Part shown: positions 3,882-14,698 of the stretch, piece by piece | Numbering within the stretch: the stretch's first letter is position 1 | Layout of the letters: each line of letters begins with the position of its first letter | Assembly: GCA_016178595.1 (NCBI GenBank) | Contig: JACOSY010000002.1 | Span: 1-42,971, forward strand | From: Ignavibacteria bacterium | GTDB taxonomy: Bacteria > Bacteroidota > Ignavibacteria > UBA10030 > SZUA-254 | Direction: 5' to 3' | Length of the DNA stretch: 42,971 nt | Translations under genes and position numbers: made by a program | Notes under the pieces: generated by a model | The model's input: only the letters and a program-made list of their open reading frames with translations | What the model was told of the DNA's origin: nothing | Database searches by the model: none

Positions 3882-6800
3882 ATGACGAAAAAAATATTCC
3901 TTTCGATATCTGCCTGTCTCTGTTTCATCCTCGGCTTTTATATCACGCACGATCCTTCGGCCAACAAGAGAGAGAAGAAAGGAGAGGACCACGCGCAGGA
4001 AATGTTCGAGTGGTGGTACTCGCAGCGCGCGCTTCCATTCGACTACATTCCGGCAGGAGCTTTTCAGAAAGCCGTCTTGTATGCAAAGACGAAGATGAGG
4101 AAGGAAAAACAAACGTTCTCGGCTTCGGGAGATCCGCAACAGTGGGTTTCAATCGGCCCGAATAACGTTGGTGGAAGAATGCTCTCTCTCGCAGTCAATC
4201 CACAGAATACAAACATTGTGTGGGCCGGATCTGCAAGCGGAGGATTGTGGAAATCCACAACCGGCGGTGAAGGCGCAAGTGCGTGGACGTATGTGAATAC
4301 CGGATTCAACGCTCTCTCGATTAGTACGATCGCGATCGATCCGGCGAGCCCGAACAACATGTACATCGGTACCGGCGAGGTCAGTTTTTATCATTCGGGA
4401 CAAGTAGGAACTCCCGGCGCACGGTCGTCGTATGGAATTGGGATTCTCCGCTCGACAGATGGAGGAAGCTCGTGGAGTCAGACCGATTTGACCTGGACAC
4501 TGCCGCAATTTACAGCGGTCGAGAAAATCATCATTAATCCCCTCAACACCAATACGCTCTACGCGGCAACGAGTGAAGGAGTCTACAAGTCGGCGGATGC
4601 TGGACTTCATTGGGTAAAGGTATCCACACATCTGATGGCAATGGACATTCTTATGGATCCCGATGATACAAGCTCCGTTTATGCCGCTCATGGAAATTTG
4701 AATTCGACTTCCGATCCGGGTCTCTACAAATCTATAGATGCAGGAGCCACATGGAATAAACTCACGAACGGATTGCCTTCCAGCAACTTCGGGCGAACGT
4801 CGCTGGCACTCTCCCCCACGGTATCATTCGTAGTCTACGCAGGGATCGCCGACGGAAACTCAGGCAGCATCATCGGCCTCTACAAATCGGTTGATGCGGG
4901 CGCATCGTGGTCGTTGTCAAACTCGACTAACTACGTCGCCGGGCAGGGGTGGTACGACAACGTCATCGCCGCCAATCCTCATACGCCGGAGTCGCTTTAC
5001 TGTGCGGGCCTCGACATCTACCTTTCCACCGATAATGGTGACACTCTCAAGCGAAAATCGGATTGGGGAGCGGGTTTCATGGGTACGGTTCCCGCCGGAG
5101 GGCCTGAAGGTCAGGATTGGTATGCTCATGCCGATCATCACGCAATTGCATTCGATCCGATCAGTACAAAAACGATCTACTTCGGATGCGATGGAGGAGT
5201 TTTCAAGACAACCGATGGAGGCAATACGTTTTTCGGATGCAACGGCGGATTGGTGACCACACAATTCTACAACGGCTTCGCAAATTCATCCTACGACTCG
5301 ACGATTGCCCTCGGCGGTCTCCAGGATAATGGCGCCGTTAAGTACGAGGGGTCGACAACCTGGAATAAAGTTGACGGTGGCGATGGCGGATGGAATGCCA
5401 TCGATCGAACGAATCAGAACATCATGTACGAGGAGTATATTTACCTGACCATTTCCAGATCCAATAGCGGTGGAGCCTCCTGGCGCTCGATTACCAATGG
5501 CATCGTCGGTGCCGGCAGCTCAACGGCTGCAAATTTCATCGCACCATTCGCCATTTCATACTCTACGCCGTCGATTCTTTACGCGGGCGCAAAGATTCTC
5601 TACAAGACTACCGACAGAGGAGATAACTGGGTTCCCACGAATAACGGAGTTGCACTCAACGGGACAAAGATCTCGTGTATTGGCGTTTCGTACACAGACC
5701 CGAATACGCTGATGGCAGGAACGGGTTCATCCGCCTCGCAGTCACCGACATTTGCAGTCTTTGCAACGACCAACGGCGGTCAAACGTGGCAGAACGTTTC
5801 TACGGGTTTGCCGAATCGGTATCCAACCGATATTGAGTTCGATCCGACCGACAGTAAAATTGCATACGTGACGTTCTCCGGATACGGAACAGGACATCTC
5901 TTCCGCACGACAAACCTCGGACAAACGTGGACGAACATTTCTTCCGGTGTCGACATCCCTCACCAATCAGTTGTCGTGGATTCTTTGGATCCCATACAAG
6001 TCTACGTTGGAACGGACCTCGGCGTCTACCACTCATCGAATTCCGGCGCGACGTGGGAAGATTTTAGTGCCGGCATGATACCGGCAATGGTGCTCGATGT
6101 AGGAATCTCACGCGCTAACGGCGTGCTTCGTGCGGCGACCTTCGGCAACGGTGTCTTTCAGCGCAAGCTCTACCGGCCACCCGTGGTGAGCCTCACCACT
6201 CCACATGGCGGAGAAGCCTACGGCGGCGGAGAGACAATCGCGATCCAATGGACGGAGAAATTCATCAGCACGGTAAAGCTGGAGTATTCCCTCGACAGCG
6301 GCGCGAGCTGGAACCTCATCGCAGACAACATCACGGCTTCAACCCTCTCCTATCTCTGGACTGTTCCGAACATCGCAACCACACAAGGGATCATCCGCAT
6401 CAGCGATGCCTCTGCGGGACAGCCGGTCGACCTGAGCGATCAACCGTTTTCAATCGTACAAGATCCGGATGTTTATGGCGGATGGAATTTGCTTTCCGTT
6501 CATCTCCTTGTTTCGGATGGACAGAAGACGACGCTCTTTCCCGGCGCGACATCCTCGGCATTCACCTACAACAGTTCGTATGTCGTCAGCGACACCCTGT
6601 ATCCCGGGATCGGCTATTGGCTGAAGTTCGATGGTGCGCAGAAGACCACCTATACCGGCGATTTAATTCTTACAGACACGATCCCGGTGACATCCGGTTG
6701 GAATATGATCGGCGCTCTTTCAGCGCCAATTGCGGCATCGTCGATTACGTCGGTACCGCCGGGCATCATCTCTTCGTCATTCTTTGGATTCAATTCAGCC

Positions 6801-7568
6801 TATTTTGTTGCGGATTCGCTGCGTCCACGCGGCGGATACTGGATCAATGTCAATGGCAATGGCAATCTTATCCTGAACAGCGGCACAGCGGGAGAGGCGA
6901 AGTCGGATGCAGCTCGTGCACCATCATCATTCAATTCGATGACGATCGGTGATGCCTCCGGCAGAAAACAGTCGCTGTATTTTACATCGAGCGAGCTCAA
7001 CCCGCGACAGTACGAAATGCCGCCGCTGCCGCCGGATGGAGTCTTCGATGTGCGATTCCAAACGCAACGCTACGTCGAAGCCATTGCGCCGAAAAGCAGA
7101 TCGATTCTTCCGATACTCCTCCAGGGCGTACGGTACCCTCTGACTATCAGTTGGAATATCTCAGAGACGGCGATCAACGAGGTCACGTTACAGACAACGG
7201 TCAACAGTATCACGATGGCCGGTTCAAGCACTATCACTATCGATGAACGGTCAGCGAAAAAATTGACGCTCGAAGTGCACAGTGGAGAACGAAGAGAAGT
7301 TCCGACGACATTCGTGCTGGAGCAGAACTATCCCAATCCGTTTAACCCGACAACAAATTTTAGATTTTCGATTTTGGATTTTGGATTGGTGACGCTGAGA
7401 GTTTACGATATGTTGGGAAGAGACGTAGCAACACTGCTCAATGAAGTGAAAGAGCCGGGGGAATACACGGTTTCGTGGGATGCGACGAATATGCCGAGCG
7501 GCGTGTATTTTTACCGGCTCGAAGCGGGATCGTTCCTACAGACGCGGAAGATGTTGATGATCAAGTGA
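3882..7568 (+). CDS. secreted beta-propeller (BNR/VPS10-like) protein with T9SS sorting domain
   Basis: About 1228 residues. N-terminal signal peptide (MTKKIFLSISACLCFILGF). Residues ~90 to 770 are a chain of sialidase-like/BNR repeats recognised by recurrent S-x-D-x-G-x-x-W motifs (STDGGSSWSQ, SADAGLHWVK, TTNGGQTWQN, TTNLGQTWTN), the pattern of photosystem II stability/VPS10 propellers, here probably two propellers. Then an Ig-like segment (PPVVSLTTPHGGEAYGGGET) and a paired GWN(L/M) module (residues ~860-1000) also found in the gene at 40676. The C-terminus has the T9SS type A sorting signature NYPNPFNPTT...VYDMLGRDV...SGVYFYRL...KMLMIK. Exported to the surface or medium; ligand unknown. 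The sorting domain contains a 21-base heptad-repeat insert. A longer frame starts at GTG 3861, but promoter position argues for ATG 3882. Confidence 0.9.
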   Translation: MTKKIFLSISACLCFILGFYITHDPSANKREKKGEDHAQEMFEWWYSQRALPFDYIPAGAFQKAVLYAKTKMRKEKQTFSASGDPQQWVSIGPNNVGGRMLSLAVNPQNTNIVWAGSASGGLWKSTTGGEGASAWTYVNTGFNALSISTIAIDPASPNNMYIGTGEVSFYHSGQVGTPGARSSYGIGILRSTDGGSSWSQTDLTWTLPQFTAVEKIIINPLNTNTLYAATSEGVYKSADAGLHWVKVSTHLMAMDILMDPDDTSSVYAAHGNLNSTSDPGLYKSIDAGATWNKLTNGLPSSNFGRTSLALSPTVSFVVYAGIADGNSGSIIGLYKSVDAGASWSLSNSTNYVAGQGWYDNVIAANPHTPESLYCAGLDIYLSTDNGDTLKRKSDWGAGFMGTVPAGGPEGQDWYAHADHHAIAFDPISTKTIYFGCDGGVFKTTDGGNTFFGCNGGLVTTQFYNGFANSSYDSTIALGGLQDNGAVKYEGSTTWNKVDGGDGGWNAIDRTNQNIMYEEYIYLTISRSNSGGASWRSITNGIVGAGSSTAANFIAPFAISYSTPSILYAGAKILYKTTDRGDNWVPTNNGVALNGTKISCIGVSYTDPNTLMAGTGSSASQSPTFAVFATTNGGQTWQNVSTGLPNRYPTDIEFDPTDSKIAYVTFSGYGTGHLFRTTNLGQTWTNISSGVDIPHQSVVVDSLDPIQVYVGTDLGVYHSSNSGATWEDFSAGMIPAMVLDVGISRANGVLRAATFGNGVFQRKLYRPPVVSLTTPHGGEAYGGGETIAIQWTEKFISTVKLEYSLDSGASWNLIADNITASTLSYLWTVPNIATTQGIIRISDASAGQPVDLSDQPFSIVQDPDVYGGWNLLSVHLLVSDGQKTTLFPGATSSAFTYNSSYVVSDTLYPGIGYWLKFDGAQKTTYTGDLILTDTIPVTSGWNMIGALSAPIAASSITSVPPGIISSSFFGFNSAYFVADSLRPRGGYWINVNGNGNLILNSGTAGEAKSDAARAPSSFNSMTIGDASGRKQSLYFTSSELNPRQYEMPPLPPDGVFDVRFQTQRYVEAIAPKSRSILPILLQGVRYPLTISWNISETAINEVTLQTTVNSITMAGSSTITIDERSAKKLTLEVHSGERREVPTTFVLEQNYPNPFNPTTNFRFSILDFGLVTLRVYDMLGRDVATLLNEVKEPGEYTVSWDATNMPSGVYFYRLEAGSFLQTRKMLMIK
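7363..7383 (+). repeat. in-frame 7-bp tandem repeat inside a T9SS sorting domain
   Basis: Three 7-base units (GATTTTC, GATTTTG, GATTTTG) placed between the YPNPFNPTT and TLRVYDMLGR blocks, giving RFSILDF in a position where other family members read IRFSLP or similar. The unit is the same as in the intergenic repeat at 18538-18593. Confidence 0.75.
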
Positions 7569-7653: not shown

Positions 7654-7748
7654 GTTACCAAGCAAAGTAACTGCGCGGAAATGCAGACTTCATCCGCCGA
7701 CATTCGATTTCCCTTTCACAAAGATTCTTCCTAGCGTGCATTTTTTTC

Positions 7749-7777
7749 TTGACTTTGTTCCGGCATCGACCTACATT
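7749..7777 (+). promoter_or_regulatory. sigma-70-type promoter conserved in both upstream modules
   Basis: TTGACT, exactly 17 bases, TACATT, preceded by a T-run. Copy 2 at 11673-11701 has the same two hexamers and the same spacer length while 9 of the 17 spacer positions differ, which is the pattern of selection on the hexamers. Confidence 0.65.
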
Positions 7778-7782
7778 GCAAC

Positions 7783-7955
7783 TACATTTCCATGCTATTT
7801 GTCCGGGGGCAAACGGACGCTCATCATATCCTTTAGAGCTTTTCGACCTGACAGAGAGGACATCTCCTCCCGAGCTATTTTTTTTGAATTAGCTTCCTCG
7901 CAATCCTGTCAGCCTCATCATTGGTGAAGTACACACCTTGAGTGTGTGAAGTGTA
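7783..7955 (+). ncRNA. candidate structured 5' leader RNA, copy 1
   Basis: Downstream of the conserved promoter the transcript can form: GTCCG/CGGAC (7801-7818); GCTC/GAGC (7819-7839); a 7-bp long-range stem CTGACAG (7848-7854) with CTGTCAG (7906-7912) that encloses two hairpins, GAGGA-CATC-TCCTC (7856-7869) and AGCTA/TAGCT (7873-7894), i.e. a three-way junction; then ACACAC-CTTGA-GTGTGT (7931-7947). All these stems recur in copy 2, and many differences fall in loops. It matches no riboswitch class I recognise. Could instead be a folded repeat element or regulator binding region. Confidence 0.5.
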
Positions 7956-8032: not shown

Positions 8033-10462
8033 ATGAACAACTCTCTACTACAGATTCTGAGGAGGGCGGTGGTATCGACCCTCCTCGCTAATCTTTGGAT
8101 TGGCACATCGGCTATGCTACTCGTACTGTTTGCCCTTCAAGCCCAGGCGCAGACCTTCGTCAACGGCAGTTTTGAAATCGACAGTTGGGCCCCAGGCTAC
8201 AGCAGCGACTGCACCGGCCCCCCCATCAGCATCACCGGATGGAACTACGTCAAGAACGGCGGCTATGGCTCCGTGTTTCACAATAGCGCTCCCTACGGCC
8301 CCACCCCCTACGGCAACCAGTTCATCAATTTGGATGGCGGCGTGCTGGGCTATTGCGGCCCCGGTAATAGCTACGTGGAACAGACCGTCGCCGGGTTCAC
8401 GCCGGGACAGTCCTACCAACTGTCCTTTTTCATTTCTTCCGAAGCCAGCCAGGGTACCAACTCACCCATCAGCCGCATCGCCGTGACGCTCACCGGCGCC
8501 ACTCCGGCCGGGCCGACGATCCGTTCCGCAGCGGGCGGGGACCTGTGGAACACCTGGGTCCCGCAAACTATCCCCTTCACGGTCACGGCCCTATCGGGGA
8601 TGGTCACATTCCATTTCGAGCACGTCGATCCCAGTCCCTTGATCATGTACAATGGGGTCGGCCTGGACAGCATCGGCGTCTCGGTCACCGCTTGCGATCC
8701 TGTCCAGGCTACGTCGGACAGACCAGTCATGCAGCTCCAGCGCTGGCTCATACCGACCGCTCCGAACATTCAGGGCATGACGAGTCAGGAAGCCCCCAAA
8801 AAAATCCCGCAAAATATGTGGTTCACTGAATTTGATCAGGCCAGAATCGGTCATCTTACCATGCCCAAGAATTGCAATACCTGCGATCCCATCCTCCTTC
8901 ATGAGTGCGAGTTCCCTACCTCGCCAACGGAGACTACTAAATCCACACCGTTCAAAATAACATACGCTCGGAAATCATTCGCAGTACATGGCCTACCACT
9001 ACTTCCCGTTTGGTTTACGGATCCGAATCGCCATACCATTAACGCTGTGGTACATCCTGCACTTCCCCCCCCAGCACCATGTATACATTACTCATACAGG
9101 ATCCCTGATAGTCTTGGCACACCCTGGGATATACAGTGGCAGCCTAAAGTGACAATCAGTGATGCAGTGAATGGTATTGCTTTTACGAGTGTCGCGAAGT
9201 TATGGTTTTCCACGCGTCCACAGAGACGATACATTTTTGCTCTCATCCCGAAATTCGGCTCCGCTATTGTAGAGAGATATAAGTTACCCGTCGGAAAGGT
9301 GGATGCATTTTTTGTTGACGAAAATGGTGGATTTGTCTGGATCGCTGCAACTGAAAATGGAACTGAATATATCTATAGAATGCCTAGTGTTGGCGGAGCG
9401 TCACTCTCTTTTGCGCCATTTGGTCCTTGTGGAGTGGATACTTTCAATGCCATACATACGAGGCATCTCGCGGCTCCACCAGTGGTGAGCGCACAACTTC
9501 CATGGCAAGTCTGGGCATCGGGACCAACGCCTAATGATGGAAGTGTTCGCATCGTAAGGCTGAATCAAGCCAATCCCATTAATTCTCTGCTTTTTGACAC
9601 ATTGTGCTGTTCAGCTACGGGATTTTACAAAGACCCCAATGGCTTGTTTGCTCCTTTCCCCTCGCCCACTATTCCTAGAAATCGCATGTTCATTACAGAG
9701 GCACCGATGGCAATAAACGACGATGCCATAAGCTCAAATAGAGCTATCCCTGATGCCGCCGCTAAGCGAGGTTTGCCACAGATGCCTAAGGACACTATTT
9801 CAGTGCCTGTCGTTATACGTAATCGTCCACACTATGAGCGGATCGTAAAACCTATATGTGAAGTTGCAAACTTGGATTCATGTGCGAAGGAATGTATCGT
9901 CGAGCAGTGGAAGACTCCCATTCCTAAGACATTGGCTCCTTTTGATTTCACTGGTGCTATCCTCGATATCGACATGGTCGGAAATGGCGTAGTAAACGTA
10001 AAGCATAAAACTGAAGGTTATACTGTCGCATTTCATGAACCTCGTCCTGGGGCGGATGGTATAATTGGAAGGTTTTGTTATACGGCTAATCTTCTTAAAC
10101 CCAATCCTCCGCCTCCCGACATCACTGCTCCTGCAGAGGGCCTGAATGGAGAAGAAGCATACCAATTCCAATTGTATGATGCGTATCCGAATCCGTTCAA
10201 TCCAGTGACCACGATTGATTACGTGCTTCCTGCGGATGCTCGCGTGACGCTAACAGTGTATAACACCTTAGGTCAGCAAGTGGCAACATTAGTGGAAAAT
10301 GAATTACAAGATCAGGGTGAGCAGAGCGCCGAGTTTGATGGGACTAACCTATCGTCAGGCGTCTACTTCTACCGTCTCGTTGCAGAAGGAATTGGCGACG
10401 AGGAAGAAGGAACACCGGGCCAAACGTACGTGAGCGTGAAGAAAATGTTATTGTTGAAATAG
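8033..10462 (+). CDS. secreted protein with DUF642-like N-terminal domain and T9SS sorting domain
   Basis: 809 residues, AGGAGG ribosome binding site, signal peptide ending near AQAQT (residue ~41). Residues ~41-220 (VNGSFEI...TGWNYV...QFINLDGG...VEQTVAGFTPGQSYQLSFF) resemble the DUF642/galactose-binding type beta-sandwich of secreted proteins. The middle, ~230-690, is unrecognised, with a TPNDGSVRIVRL stretch reminiscent of propeller proteins and several Cys. The end is a T9SS type A sorting domain (YPNPFNPVTTIDYVLP...SGVYFYRLV...KKMLLLK) with an extra GDEEEGTPGQTYVSVK segment shared only with the gene at 11960. The first ~700 bases are visibly more GC-rich than the middle, suggesting domain shuffling. 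Expression is probably governed by the duplicated leader upstream. Confidence 0.85.
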   Translation: MNNSLLQILRRAVVSTLLANLWIGTSAMLLVLFALQAQAQTFVNGSFEIDSWAPGYSSDCTGPPISITGWNYVKNGGYGSVFHNSAPYGPTPYGNQFINLDGGVLGYCGPGNSYVEQTVAGFTPGQSYQLSFFISSEASQGTNSPISRIAVTLTGATPAGPTIRSAAGGDLWNTWVPQTIPFTVTALSGMVTFHFEHVDPSPLIMYNGVGLDSIGVSVTACDPVQATSDRPVMQLQRWLIPTAPNIQGMTSQEAPKKIPQNMWFTEFDQARIGHLTMPKNCNTCDPILLHECEFPTSPTETTKSTPFKITYARKSFAVHGLPLLPVWFTDPNRHTINAVVHPALPPPAPCIHYSYRIPDSLGTPWDIQWQPKVTISDAVNGIAFTSVAKLWFSTRPQRRYIFALIPKFGSAIVERYKLPVGKVDAFFVDENGGFVWIAATENGTEYIYRMPSVGGASLSFAPFGPCGVDTFNAIHTRHLAAPPVVSAQLPWQVWASGPTPNDGSVRIVRLNQANPINSLLFDTLCCSATGFYKDPNGLFAPFPSPTIPRNRMFITEAPMAINDDAISSNRAIPDAAAKRGLPQMPKDTISVPVVIRNRPHYERIVKPICEVANLDSCAKECIVEQWKTPIPKTLAPFDFTGAILDIDMVGNGVVNVKHKTEGYTVAFHEPRPGADGIIGRFCYTANLLKPNPPPPDITAPAEGLNGEEAYQFQLYDAYPNPFNPVTTIDYVLPADARVTLTVYNTLGQQVATLVENELQDQGEQSAEFDGTNLSSGVYFYRLVAEGIGDEEEGTPGQTYVSVKKMLLLK

Positions 10463-11078: not shown

Positions 11079-11342
11079 ATGCACACTACGGATCCGAGCC
11101 TTTCCATCACACGCACATCATTATTCGACGTGCCGCGAAGCACACCGGACGAGTATCCATCGATGCTCGCACTCCTGCGAAGGATGGAAGAACTTGTTCC
11201 ACCTCGATTGGAATCTGTGCGAAGAAAGGTAGAGGTCTTGCCACATGAGGTGGAAGTGATTCCACCTCGGGTGGATTTCATTCCACATAAGGTGGAAAGA
11301 GTCGTTCTCGCGCAGCTATGTAATTGTCGAAAAACAACTTAG
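11079..11342 (+). CDS. possible small protein with 7-residue repeats
   Basis: 87 residues (GTG at 11076 is an alternative start); GAAGG about 10 bases upstream. The second half is a string of 7-residue units of the type HKVERVV / HEVEVIP / PRVDFIP, each encoded by one 21-bp unit. Because the units are also DNA palindromes, the reading frame may be incidental. The first half (LFDVPRSTPDEYPSMLALLRRMEELVPP) looks protein-like. Function unknown. Confidence 0.3.
   Translation: MHTTDPSLSITRTSLFDVPRSTPDEYPSMLALLRRMEELVPPRLESVRRKVEVLPHEVEVIPPRVDFIPHKVERVVLAQLCNCRKTT
11197..11297. repeat. array of palindromes at 21-bp spacing
   Basis: Copies of the palindrome TTCCAC-N5-GTGGAA begin at 11197, 11239, 11260 and 11281, i.e. 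at multiples of 21 bp, with a degenerate unit at the 11218 position. The best copies (11281-11297) are perfect. A further perfect copy, CTTCCACATGAGGTGGAAG, is at 11386-11404, and a half-conserved one near 11516. Spacing of two helical turns would place bound dimers on one face of the DNA. Confidence 0.7.
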
Positions 11343-11672
11343 CAGCATGGGGGTTTTGGCGCCTCTGCGAAGAACGTTTTCTTGCCTTCCACATGAGGTG
11401 GAAGACTCCCGAGCAATGAAAGACCGACTCCGAAGAAAGCAAGAGTGCCATCTGATCGGTAACGAAGTGCAGGAAGGAATGGAAGAGGATTCTCCACGCT
11501 TTGCAGCCAGGCCGCCGCACGAGGTGGAGTATACGCGAGGAACCATCGCGTTGGTGAAATGGAGAATGCATGCCGAAAAGAAGAGATCGTGCTGCGCGGA
11601 AATGCAGACTTTATCGGCTGGCATTTGGTTTACCTCGCGACAAAGTTTATTTTCCAAGCGTGCACTTTTTTC

Positions 11673-11701
11673 TTGACTTTCCTCCAGCCTCGAGGTACAT
11701 T
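11673..11701 (+). promoter_or_regulatory. sigma-70-type promoter, copy 2
   Basis: TTGACT, 17 bases, TACATT; hexamers and spacing identical to 7749-7777 although the spacer sequence differs. Confidence 0.65.
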
Positions 11702-11706
11702 GCACC

Positions 11707-11875
11707 TATATTTCCACGCTATTTGTCCGGGGGCACACGGACGCTCATCGAATCCTTAGAGCATTTCGACCTGACAGAGAGGACATCTCCTCCCGAGCTA
11801 ATTTTAAATTAGCTTCCGCGCAATCCTGTCAGCCTCATCATTGGTAAAGTACACACGTTGAGTGTGTGAAGTGTA
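11707..11875 (+). ncRNA. candidate structured 5' leader RNA, copy 2
   Basis: Keeps every stem of copy 1: GTCCG/CGGAC, GCTC/GAGC, the long-range CTGACAG/CTGTCAG stem enclosing GAGGA-CATC-TCCTC and an AGCTAATTT/AAATTAGCT hairpin (longer and perfect here), and ACACAC-GTTGA-GTGTGT. Differences from copy 1 include loop changes (GGGCAAA to GGGCACA, CATATCC to CGAATCC, CTTGA to GTTGA). Confidence 0.5.
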
Positions 11876-11959
11876 TGTTGCCGGATTTCCGGCGACAACT
11901 CTCGAATCGACCTTTTCAGTACAAACTATTCTGATCACAATTGCATGAAAGGGGCTACC

Positions 11960-14698
11960 ATGAAGGCAAGTAATATTTTACGAAGTATTGTTATCTGTCC
12001 ATTTGATGTTGCGGCAAGATGCAGCAACATTCTCATGTATCTGGCGCTTTTATGTATTTTGGCTCCTGGATTTGCGATCGGACAGAAATTTGCCACAGGC
12101 GAGGTATTTGCAGGACTTCAAAATGGAATCATTGCGCGATTCGACGCCGGAGGACATTTGTTGCAAACACTCCACGCAACTATCGGTAGTACTAATTTAG
12201 AGACTGGCATGTGTTTCGACCTCGCGGGTAATCTCTATGCAACGAACTGGAATGCGTATACGATGACCAAGTTCGATAATATGGGAAATATGCCGGTGTA
12301 TTTGTGGGCGGGCATGCGTACTTTTGACAGGCCTGAAAACTGTCTTATCGATTGTGACGGTAACATTTTAGTGGGTGATAATTTCGGTCCGCTCCGACAG
12401 TTCGATCCCAACGGCAACCTTTTAAATACATACAACCTCCCCCCTGCGTGCACTGCGTGGGCCTCCTACACCCACAACGGTATCGATTGGATGGATCTTG
12501 CGGCGGACCAACACACGCTATATTACACAGGTGAAGATAACGTGATCATGACATTCGATCTTCTCAGCAGCGCCTGCTCAATCTTCTACGCCTTTCCCGC
12601 CGGAACCCAAGCTTATGCGCTACGCATCATCCCATCCACCCGCGAGGTACTCGTCGCGACGAATAATGGTGTTTATCGTCTGAACGCTGCAGGTACTCAG
12701 CAGCAGCAGTACCCAATCGCCGGCCCAGGCGGATTCTTTGCTCTGAATTTGGATCCGGACAAACGGACATTTTGGACAGGGAGCATCGGAACAGGGGAGA
12801 TCCTCAGGATTGACATCACGAGTGGCATCCTAATAACCGTGTTCAATGCGTACTCCAATGCAAATCTCCCCACCCCACCCGCCGGCACCTCGCTCTTAGG
12901 AGGATTGGCAATTTTTGGTGAGCGAACTGCTGCAAATTGCGGCGGCCCTTGCGATAGCTGGACGGCGCTCTACAGTAACGCACACGTGTTTAATGACATG
13001 GGCTTCAAGATCCCGACCGTTGCCGGTAAGATGACCCGCAACCTCGCGGTTGCTGCCAACGGGGATGTATACGTGACCGGCTACAGCTCGGGGAGCAGGA
13101 CAGGGTTCGACTATGTCACGATCCGGTACAACAAGGCAGGCGCGATGATGCCCGGCTGGCCGCAGCGCTACAACGGCCCGGTGAATGGAAATGATAAGGC
13201 ATACAGCCTCGCTATTGACAACAGCGGAAACGTGTACGTCACCGGGGAGAGCAACCAGGGAGCGCTTAATGGCGGCGTCGACATCGTTACAATCGGATAC
13301 GATCCAGGCGGTAACCTGATACCATGGTGGCCAGTGATCTACACCCCTCCCTTTTCTGGCGCGCATAGAGATGCTGGATACGCCATTGCAGTCGATGGGG
13401 CTGGTGCGTACGTCTACGTCACCGGTGAGAGCTTTAGTGGAACGGGGATAGATTACATCACCATTTGTTACAACGCCGCAACAGGTGTCCCGGAGTGGGC
13501 TAGGACATATAATGGAACGGCCAATAAGACCGACAAGGCATACGCTATCGCCGTAGATCCTGTTACGGGTGATGTTGCGGTGACCGGCGAGAGTGGGGGC
13601 ATTGGGACCTTACAGGACATTGCGACCGTCAGGTACACACCTGGCCCGGTTGGCTCTGGTGGCGGCGTACTGGTCTACAGTGATCGGTACGATGCTGATA
13701 CCAAGAATGACTACGGCTTCGGCATCACGTTTAATAATAGTGGCGACTTGTTCGTAGTAGGTGCGAGTAACATGGGGGCTCTTAAACGTTGGGATTACAC
13801 CACGATAGGATATCCAGCTGGCGGAGGCCGCTGGGTGCAACACTATGACTTCATCAGCAGGAATGACTATGGTTATGATCTGGCAACGGATGCCGCCGGC
13901 AACGTTTACGTAACGGGTGCAAGCGAACGCCTCATCGGCGCAACTACGAACTTGGATTACGCAACAATTAAGTACGATCCGAGCGGGGTCCCGATGTGGG
14001 TTCATCGCTATGACAGCGGCATAAATGGGGCGGATATCGCGCGGGCAATTGCTGTGTGCGACGTCAAGAAAGAAGTGCTTGTGACTGGCAGCAGCTATCA
14101 AGGGCCATCTCTAACCGGACTGAATTATGCAACTTTACGCTTAGATCAGGCTACTGGCAATCAAGTTCCAGGTAGCTACCCGGAGATATACGATTTTAGT
14201 CCGAAGGATATACCCTACGACATTGTGGTTCGACCGTTGCCAGACACTTGTTGCTGCGTTGCTGTCACGGGCACATTCATCTCCGGGCTGAAAACAAAGA
14301 CACAATTCGCGACGGTGCAATTTAATGGATGTCAGAGGGGAATCCGGATCAACACACCATCTGGGTATGATGGCGAAGAGGAGCTTGAACTGCCCGGCAC
14401 GCTCACGGTGTACAACAACTACCCGAACCCCTTCAACCCGACAACGACGATAGAGTACTCACTTCCCGAGGAAGCGTACGTAACGCTGAAGGTTTATAAC
14501 GTTCTCGGGCAGGAGGTTGCCTCATTATTGGATCACGAGTTGCTCGACCAAGGCACTCAGGAGGCAGAGTTCGACGCATCGAATCTACCCTCGGGTGTCT
14601 ACTTCTACCACATCGTGGCTGAAGGTGTCGGCGACCAGGAAGAAGGAACGCCGGGCCAAACTTACGTGAGCGTGAAGAAGATGTTGTTGATGAAGTGA
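11960..14698 (+). CDS. secreted beta-propeller (SBBP repeat) protein with T9SS sorting domain
   Basis: 912 residues from ATG 11960, chosen for its AAAGGGG site; ATG 11945 is in frame. Signal peptide with an extended N-terminus (hydrophobic ILMYLALLCILAPGFAIG). Residues ~45-310 are an NHL/6-bladed-type propeller (LYATNWNAYTMTKFD, ILVGDNFGPLRQFD). Residues ~330-800 are SBBP repeats, recognised by recurring G-(D/N)-VYVTG-(Y/E)-S...DY.TI.Y (about seven copies). T9SS type A domain at the end: NYPNPFNPTTTIEYSLP...LPSGVYFYHIV, then GDQEEGTPGQTYVSVKKMLLMK, strongly similar to the end of the gene at 8033. Likely surface-exposed. Shares its upstream module with that paralogue. The stop codon lies in a long hairpin. 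Confidence 0.88.
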   Translation: MKASNILRSIVICPFDVAARCSNILMYLALLCILAPGFAIGQKFATGEVFAGLQNGIIARFDAGGHLLQTLHATIGSTNLETGMCFDLAGNLYATNWNAYTMTKFDNMGNMPVYLWAGMRTFDRPENCLIDCDGNILVGDNFGPLRQFDPNGNLLNTYNLPPACTAWASYTHNGIDWMDLAADQHTLYYTGEDNVIMTFDLLSSACSIFYAFPAGTQAYALRIIPSTREVLVATNNGVYRLNAAGTQQQQYPIAGPGGFFALNLDPDKRTFWTGSIGTGEILRIDITSGILITVFNAYSNANLPTPPAGTSLLGGLAIFGERTAANCGGPCDSWTALYSNAHVFNDMGFKIPTVAGKMTRNLAVAANGDVYVTGYSSGSRTGFDYVTIRYNKAGAMMPGWPQRYNGPVNGNDKAYSLAIDNSGNVYVTGESNQGALNGGVDIVTIGYDPGGNLIPWWPVIYTPPFSGAHRDAGYAIAVDGAGAYVYVTGESFSGTGIDYITICYNAATGVPEWARTYNGTANKTDKAYAIAVDPVTGDVAVTGESGGIGTLQDIATVRYTPGPVGSGGGVLVYSDRYDADTKNDYGFGITFNNSGDLFVVGASNMGALKRWDYTTIGYPAGGGRWVQHYDFISRNDYGYDLATDAAGNVYVTGASERLIGATTNLDYATIKYDPSGVPMWVHRYDSGINGADIARAIAVCDVKKEVLVTGSSYQGPSLTGLNYATLRLDQATGNQVPGSYPEIYDFSPKDIPYDIVVRPLPDTCCCVAVTGTFISGLKTKTQFATVQFNGCQRGIRINTPSGYDGEEELELPGTLTVYNNYPNPFNPTTTIEYSLPEEAYVTLKVYNVLGQEVASLLDHELLDQGTQEAEFDASNLPSGVYFYHIVAEGVGDQEEGTPGQTYVSVKKMLLMK

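Follow-up and report, generated by a model that had tools for sequence, protein, structure and literature searches.

A promoter with a structured leader repeated in front of four exported-protein genes of one Ignavibacteria genome

An element made of a promoter and a leader, the latter some 170 bases long but shortened in one of the copies, is present four times in the genome analysed here (3.1 Mb, 61 contigs), and is new as far as Rfam goes. All four copies lie in sense orientation upstream of an exported-protein gene. With moderate confidence, we favour the view that this is a lineage-restricted promoter and structured 5′ leader, which would co-regulate surface proteins after transcription initiation. 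The leader is probably a local device controlling surface-protein production. The same promoter and leader mark both IPTL-CTERM genes and two T9SS genes, and so offer a concrete cis element, open to experiment, that connects two sorting systems; this bears on the regulation of exosortase cargo outside Proteobacteria.

The window, meaning the whole stretch of 42,971 nucleotides that was analysed, lies on contig C28 and holds copies 1 and 2. Copy 1 (7671-7955) and copy 2 (11592-11875) are homologous from end to end (87% identity, E 3e-93, blastn). The duplicated 285-base promoter and structured leader reported in the preliminary description is therefore real, but its copies number four, not two. 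A genome-wide blastn search placed copy 3 at C23:91775-92062, on the minus strand (87%), and a divergent copy 4 at C19:2386-2457 (79% over 72 nt). Copy 4 was also recovered in the whole genome (41.7 bits, E 1.5e-7) by a covariance model made from copies 1-3 only, copy 4 being left out, and this model found no fifth copy in the whole genome. The features of the window are the following.

7673-7748, plus strand: homologous DNA upstream of the copy 1 promoter, 70-82% identical between copies
7749-7777, plus strand: copy 1 promoter, TTGACT, 17-nt spacer, TACATT
7784-7955, plus strand: copy 1 leader RNA, start deduced from the -10 position
7784-7954, plus strand: possible P1, between the 5′ end of the RNA (7784-7790, ACAUUUC) and 7948-7954 (GAAGUGU)
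7801-7818, plus strand: P2 hairpin, GUCCG[GGGGCAAA]CGGAC, core of a 28-nt block (7798-7825)
7819-7839, plus strand: P3 hairpin, GCUC...GAGC, with a variable loop
7848-7912, plus strand: P4, CUGACAG/CUGUCAG, enclosing P5 and P6 in a three-way junction
7856-7869, plus strand: P5, GAGGA/TCCTC, inside P4
7873-7894, plus strand: P6, AGCTA/TAGCT, inside P4
8033-10462, plus strand: gene behind copy 1, exported product, weak choice-of-anchor C match, T9SS type A tail
11592-11672, plus strand: homologous DNA upstream of the copy 2 promoter
11673-11701, plus strand: copy 2 promoter, TTGACT, 17-nt spacer, TACATT
11708-11875, plus strand: copy 2 leader RNA, covariance model match at 11722-11835
11960-14698, plus strand: gene behind copy 2, SBBP beta-propeller protein, T9SS type A tail

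Just 5′ of the leader, the four copies share a promoter reading TTGACT-N17-TAYATT, which is of the sigma-70-like type. The -35 hexamer is TTGACT in all four copies, and the -10 is TACATT or TATATT. Identical hexamers at identical spacing around a diverged spacer had been reported for copies 1 and 2, and this holds: the spacers of these two copies agree at 11/17 positions (16/17 for copies 1-3, 12/17 for copies 2-3). Judged from the position of the -10 only, transcripts would start at about 7784 (copy 1) and 11708 (copy 2).

Pairwise identities were then compared along copies 1-3, aligned on copy 1 (pairs in the order 1-2, 1-3, 2-3). Upstream of the promoter they amount to 62/76, 52/73 and 53/76 (70-82%), and in the leader (7784-7955) to 157/168, 160/171 and 150/168 (89-94%), with Fisher p values for leader versus upstream of 0.010, 1.2e-5 and 3.4e-4. 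For comparison, the window genes are 71% identical to each other in the coding DNA of their duplicated C-terminal part. The predicted leader is thus slow to change and under more constraint than the DNA upstream. In copy 4, similarity to the other copies has gone nearly everywhere but in TTTGTCCGGGGGCAMACGGACGCTCATC, AGAGC and GAGGACATC; its TTTGTCCGGGGGCAMACGGACGCTCATC block matches copy 1 at 27/28 positions, and corresponds to the near-invariant block around P2. By its sequence, copy 4 looks like an old copy in which the core alone was retained. Recent duplication of the promoter region as a segment, or its gene conversion, with no RNA function would account for the 87% overall identity of copies 1-3, for the tandem placement of copies 1 and 2, and for the likeness of their genes in the C-terminal part. 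We judge it unlikely, given that divergence is uneven, the leader being far better kept than the upstream DNA, that copy 4 is old with only its core kept, and that all four copies stand in sense orientation before exported-protein genes.

Folding of the leader alone yielded P1 to P6 in copies 1-3. The recurring stems and the three-way junction of the preliminary description are found again, with P2-P6 pairing at probabilities of 0.77-1.0 in the two window copies. Folding of the entire 5′ UTR left P2 at 0.91-1.0 in each of the four copies and P4-P6 at 0.84-0.98 in copies 1 and 2; for P4 the value went down to 0.35 in copy 3, and in copy 4 this stem is present in about half of the predicted ensemble. 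P1 is another case: its pair probability is 0.73-0.98 with the leader alone (copies 1-3), where it would hide the presumed RNA 5′ end, versus 0.00-0.03 in the full 5′ UTR as far as the start codon, since a local 3′ hairpin takes up its 3′ strand as well. P1 and this hairpin are mutually exclusive in the predicted folds, and possibly form a switch. The possible outer pairing of the 5′ end with 7948-7954, like copies 3 and 4, was absent from the first account. Folding z-scores are -2.6 to -3.2 for copies 1-3; as a control 175-nt stretch upstream of copy 1 gave -2.2, folding energy by itself is weak evidence, and the z-score is not taken as proof.

Covariation could be looked for in four sequences from one genome, three of them closely similar. 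In copy 4, P6 is missing and P4 reads UGGCGGC/GUCGCCA, with two pairs altered on both sides and another one altered to G-U. The covariation check put forward earlier thus gave two compensatory pairs in P4, which are not significant alone: in a shuffle control, a comparable 7-bp match arose by chance in 7-9% of cases (p about 0.07-0.09). These pairs, coming from one divergent sequence, are no more than suggestive of a conserved stem. The arms of P2 never vary in the four copies and show no compensated change, and from its sequence P2 could equally be a DNA dyad as an RNA stem.

This last point is central to the strongest of the rival readings, in which GTCCG-N8-CGGAC, placed about 18 to 35 bases past the transcript start, is a DNA operator, bound by a transcription factor that may be of the XRE type, as is the regulator encoded next to copy 3; the RNA fold would then have no role of its own. 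Both dyad arms are invariant in the four copies, no compensated change favours an RNA stem, and copy 3 is flanked by a divergent 64-aa HTH_3 ORF (E 1.7e-9), of which the 5′ part has left degraded remnants 5′ of copies 1 and 2. An operator should however be far smaller than the approximately 170 transcribed bases that are conserved; the asymmetric loop GGGGCAMA is likewise conserved, and P4 of copy 4 has been remade as a stem. We consider the operator possible, yet doubtful.

At the copy 3 locus (L134), the 64-aa XRE-type HTH ORF is found at about 10014-10208, on the plus strand of C23, and points away from the copy 3 promoter; a histidine kinase gene is located upstream, and a serine recombinase-like ORF (5761-7293) directly 3′ of the IPTL-CTERM gene. 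The DNA 5′ of the copy 1 promoter (7673-7748) shows opposite-strand homology to the HTH ORF, in the 5′ part of the latter, and in copies 1 and 2 the homology stops within the region matching that part. Copies 1 and 2 may therefore descend from a locus where a regulator gene faced the promoter. The recombinase-like gene next to the gene behind copy 3, together with the dispersal of the four copies, could point to a mobile repeat (MITE or REP-like) that carries a promoter by chance. This we hold to be very improbable: inspection of the alignment revealed neither terminal inverted repeats nor target duplications at the copy ends, every copy sits 5′ of a gene and reads towards its start, and phage and plasmid collections gave no match, the core pattern being absent from viral contigs as well.

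The genes behind the leaders were then compared. As first reported, the products of the two window genes resemble each other in their T9SS C-termini (TIGR04183 above cut-off for both; 65% identity over 112 aa) and show no N-terminal similarity. The tandem genes have in common a 275-nt C-terminal coding repeat (10184-10458 and 14420-14694, 71%). With unrelated N-terminal domains in front of this common repeat, the arrangement reads as a shuffling of domains downstream of a leader common to both. The genes after copies 3 and 4 encode proteins of 559 aa and 298 aa, respectively, both with an IPTL-CTERM end above the Pfam cut-off, and these are the only two IPTL-CTERM genes above cut-off genome-wide. 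The genome has one exosortase H (XrtH) above its cut-off, adjoining a gene that resembles the XrtH-associated membrane protein (31.3 bits, for a cut-off of 35). The leader thus precedes 2 of 2 IPTL-CTERM genes, whereas T9SS tails number about 115 (116 places genome-wide with E no higher than 0.01) and 2 of them have it. The chance of both IPTL-CTERM genes being next to leaders is of the order of one in a million, a rough estimate based on four leaders among a few thousand genes. For these reasons, the leader is tied more to exosortase cargo than to T9SS. A T9SS-cargo element, as the preliminary description had it, is too narrow a label; further copies had been expected upstream of other T9SS genes, and coding genes do follow copies 3 and 4, but with IPTL-CTERM tails. 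No domain common to all four proteins was found beyond the tails.

Outside this genome, the element was not encountered. No Rfam 15 covariance model matched above its gathering cut-off, in agreement with the earlier remark that no riboswitch class was recognised, and the leader strand inside the element stayed empty in permissive scans, whose one chance match (E 3.5) fell beyond the limits of the element, at L002 391-567, on the other strand. There was no believable copy among 60 relatives (blastn), in 294 genomes of the class (22-base pattern, up to 3 mismatches), in 98 genomes of the order (covariance model R1), or in 391 genomes of the class and 395 of the phylum (covariance model R2, overlapping samples); the large covariance runs used the stricter filters of Infernal, which a very diverged relative could escape. 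The covariance search proposed at the outset was thus productive in the own genome, with copy 4, and in no other, and the element is portable within its genome only, as far as the searched genomes go. Near-matches to the pattern elsewhere (L122-L124, L126-L129, L131) were rejected, as the rest of the element is missing there. Three weak matches in the phylum are attributed to chance: L190 and L192 apparently fall within one conserved coding sequence, possibly leuA, and L191 has no core block. An exact scan of the genome contigs for CGGACGCTCATCNNATCC speaks for the matches listed only.

A leader linked generally to XrtH was also considered and rejected. The family members G001 and G009 have XrtH and no leader, and the IPTL-CTERM genes of G001 stand in tandem, without it. 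IPTL-CTERM genes were also taken from ten further genomes of the class; their upstream regions share only within-group coding sequence, and model R1 found nothing in them (L175-L180 not included).

How might the leader act? In the explanation that we favour, a lineage-restricted unit, made of a sigma-70-like promoter and a structured 5′ leader RNA and present as four copies in one genome, would drive a small set of exported surface proteins, namely the two exosortase cargoes with IPTL-CTERM ends and the tandem pair of T9SS cargoes. The leader RNA would act after transcription start, most likely as an mRNA-protecting or translation-tuning 5′ structure. P2, with its loop GGGGCAMA, would be a sequence-specific recognition hairpin for a trans-acting factor, probably a protein, and through the leader these surface proteins would be made together. 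In the two window copies, the interval from the leader to the gene holds no terminator-like site, and the Shine-Dalgarno region is 22-56% unpaired, with no masking common to the copies, so that no expression platform is visible.

A new class of riboswitch, sensing a metabolite or an ion, would fit the multi-stem fold with its invariant hairpin loop and GAGGACAUC block, the exclusive pairing of the same bases in P1 and the 3′ hairpin, and the lack of an Rfam match. It is nevertheless highly unlikely in our opinion: the element is known from one genome only, its genes encode structural surface proteins rather than metabolic or transport functions, there is neither a terminator nor consistent Shine-Dalgarno sequestration, and an aptamer can hardly be judged from four sequences. 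A broader proposal, which we put forward tentatively and with rather low expectation, is a new leader class, responsive to a trans factor or a ligand, that couples exosortase H (IPTL-CTERM) and selected T9SS cargo to one signal; if true, two different surface-anchoring routes would be coordinated at the RNA level. Two other candidates were discarded. For a leader peptide over P2 (MLFVRGQTDAHHIL in copy 1), copies 2 and 4 have no ATG, and an amino acid is altered by the A/C change in the P2 loop. A hidden GEMM-I-like aptamer (GGGCAAAC, GGACGC) was unsupported by cmscan.

Long conserved untranslated leaders of surface-protein genes exist in Lactobacillus (slpA). The present element is alike by description only, as a surface-protein leader; the phylum and the export route are different. 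Closer in its cargo is the conserved site upstream of proteobacterial PEP-CTERM genes, which involves PrsK/PrsR and sigma-54 (Haft et al. 2006, PMC1569441). There too, one cis element serves dispersed exosortase-cargo genes with large noncoding upstream regions. The PEP-CTERM site is however a DNA site with a sigma-54 promoter, whereas a sigma-70-like promoter and a transcribed structured leader are found here, the shared promoter showing no -24/-12 GG/GC signature of sigma-54; this leader precedes IPTL-CTERM genes, and apparently outside Proteobacteria, since the sorting tails point to a probable place on the Bacteroidota/Ignavibacteria side. Many PEP-CTERM upstream noncoding regions are left unexplained by the sigma-54 site, and further regulators and motifs were expected (Haft et al. 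2006, PMC1569441). The 5′-terminal stem-loops that stabilise the mRNAs of E. coli ompA and papA and B. subtilis aprE (papers listed in PMC3997798) offer a second parallel, going by that list: a structured 5′ UTR before genes for exported or surface proteins, with a 5′ end possibly paired. A plain stabiliser of that kind would not need the near-invariant sequence block seen here, and, in contrast to those cases, the 5′ pairing depends on context and a stabilising role is only putative. Flavo-1, mentioned in PMC9723704 as an orphan leader motif whose ligand is not known, is likewise a computationally inferred structured RNA; unlike it, the present leader matches no Rfam 15 model and comes from one genome.

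Two minor observations concern the surroundings of the copies. A further hairpin is present 3′ of copies 2 (window 11876-11897) and 3 (L134, about 9750-9775), not of copy 1; in copy 2 it reads GUUGCCGG...CCGGCGAC, and most of its pairs are kept despite substitutions. Between the copy 1 gene and the copy 2 leader, short palindromic repeats CCACNNNAGGTGGA are clustered at 11198-11528 (9 in the cluster, on two strands; 10 in the window, versus 0.36 expected).
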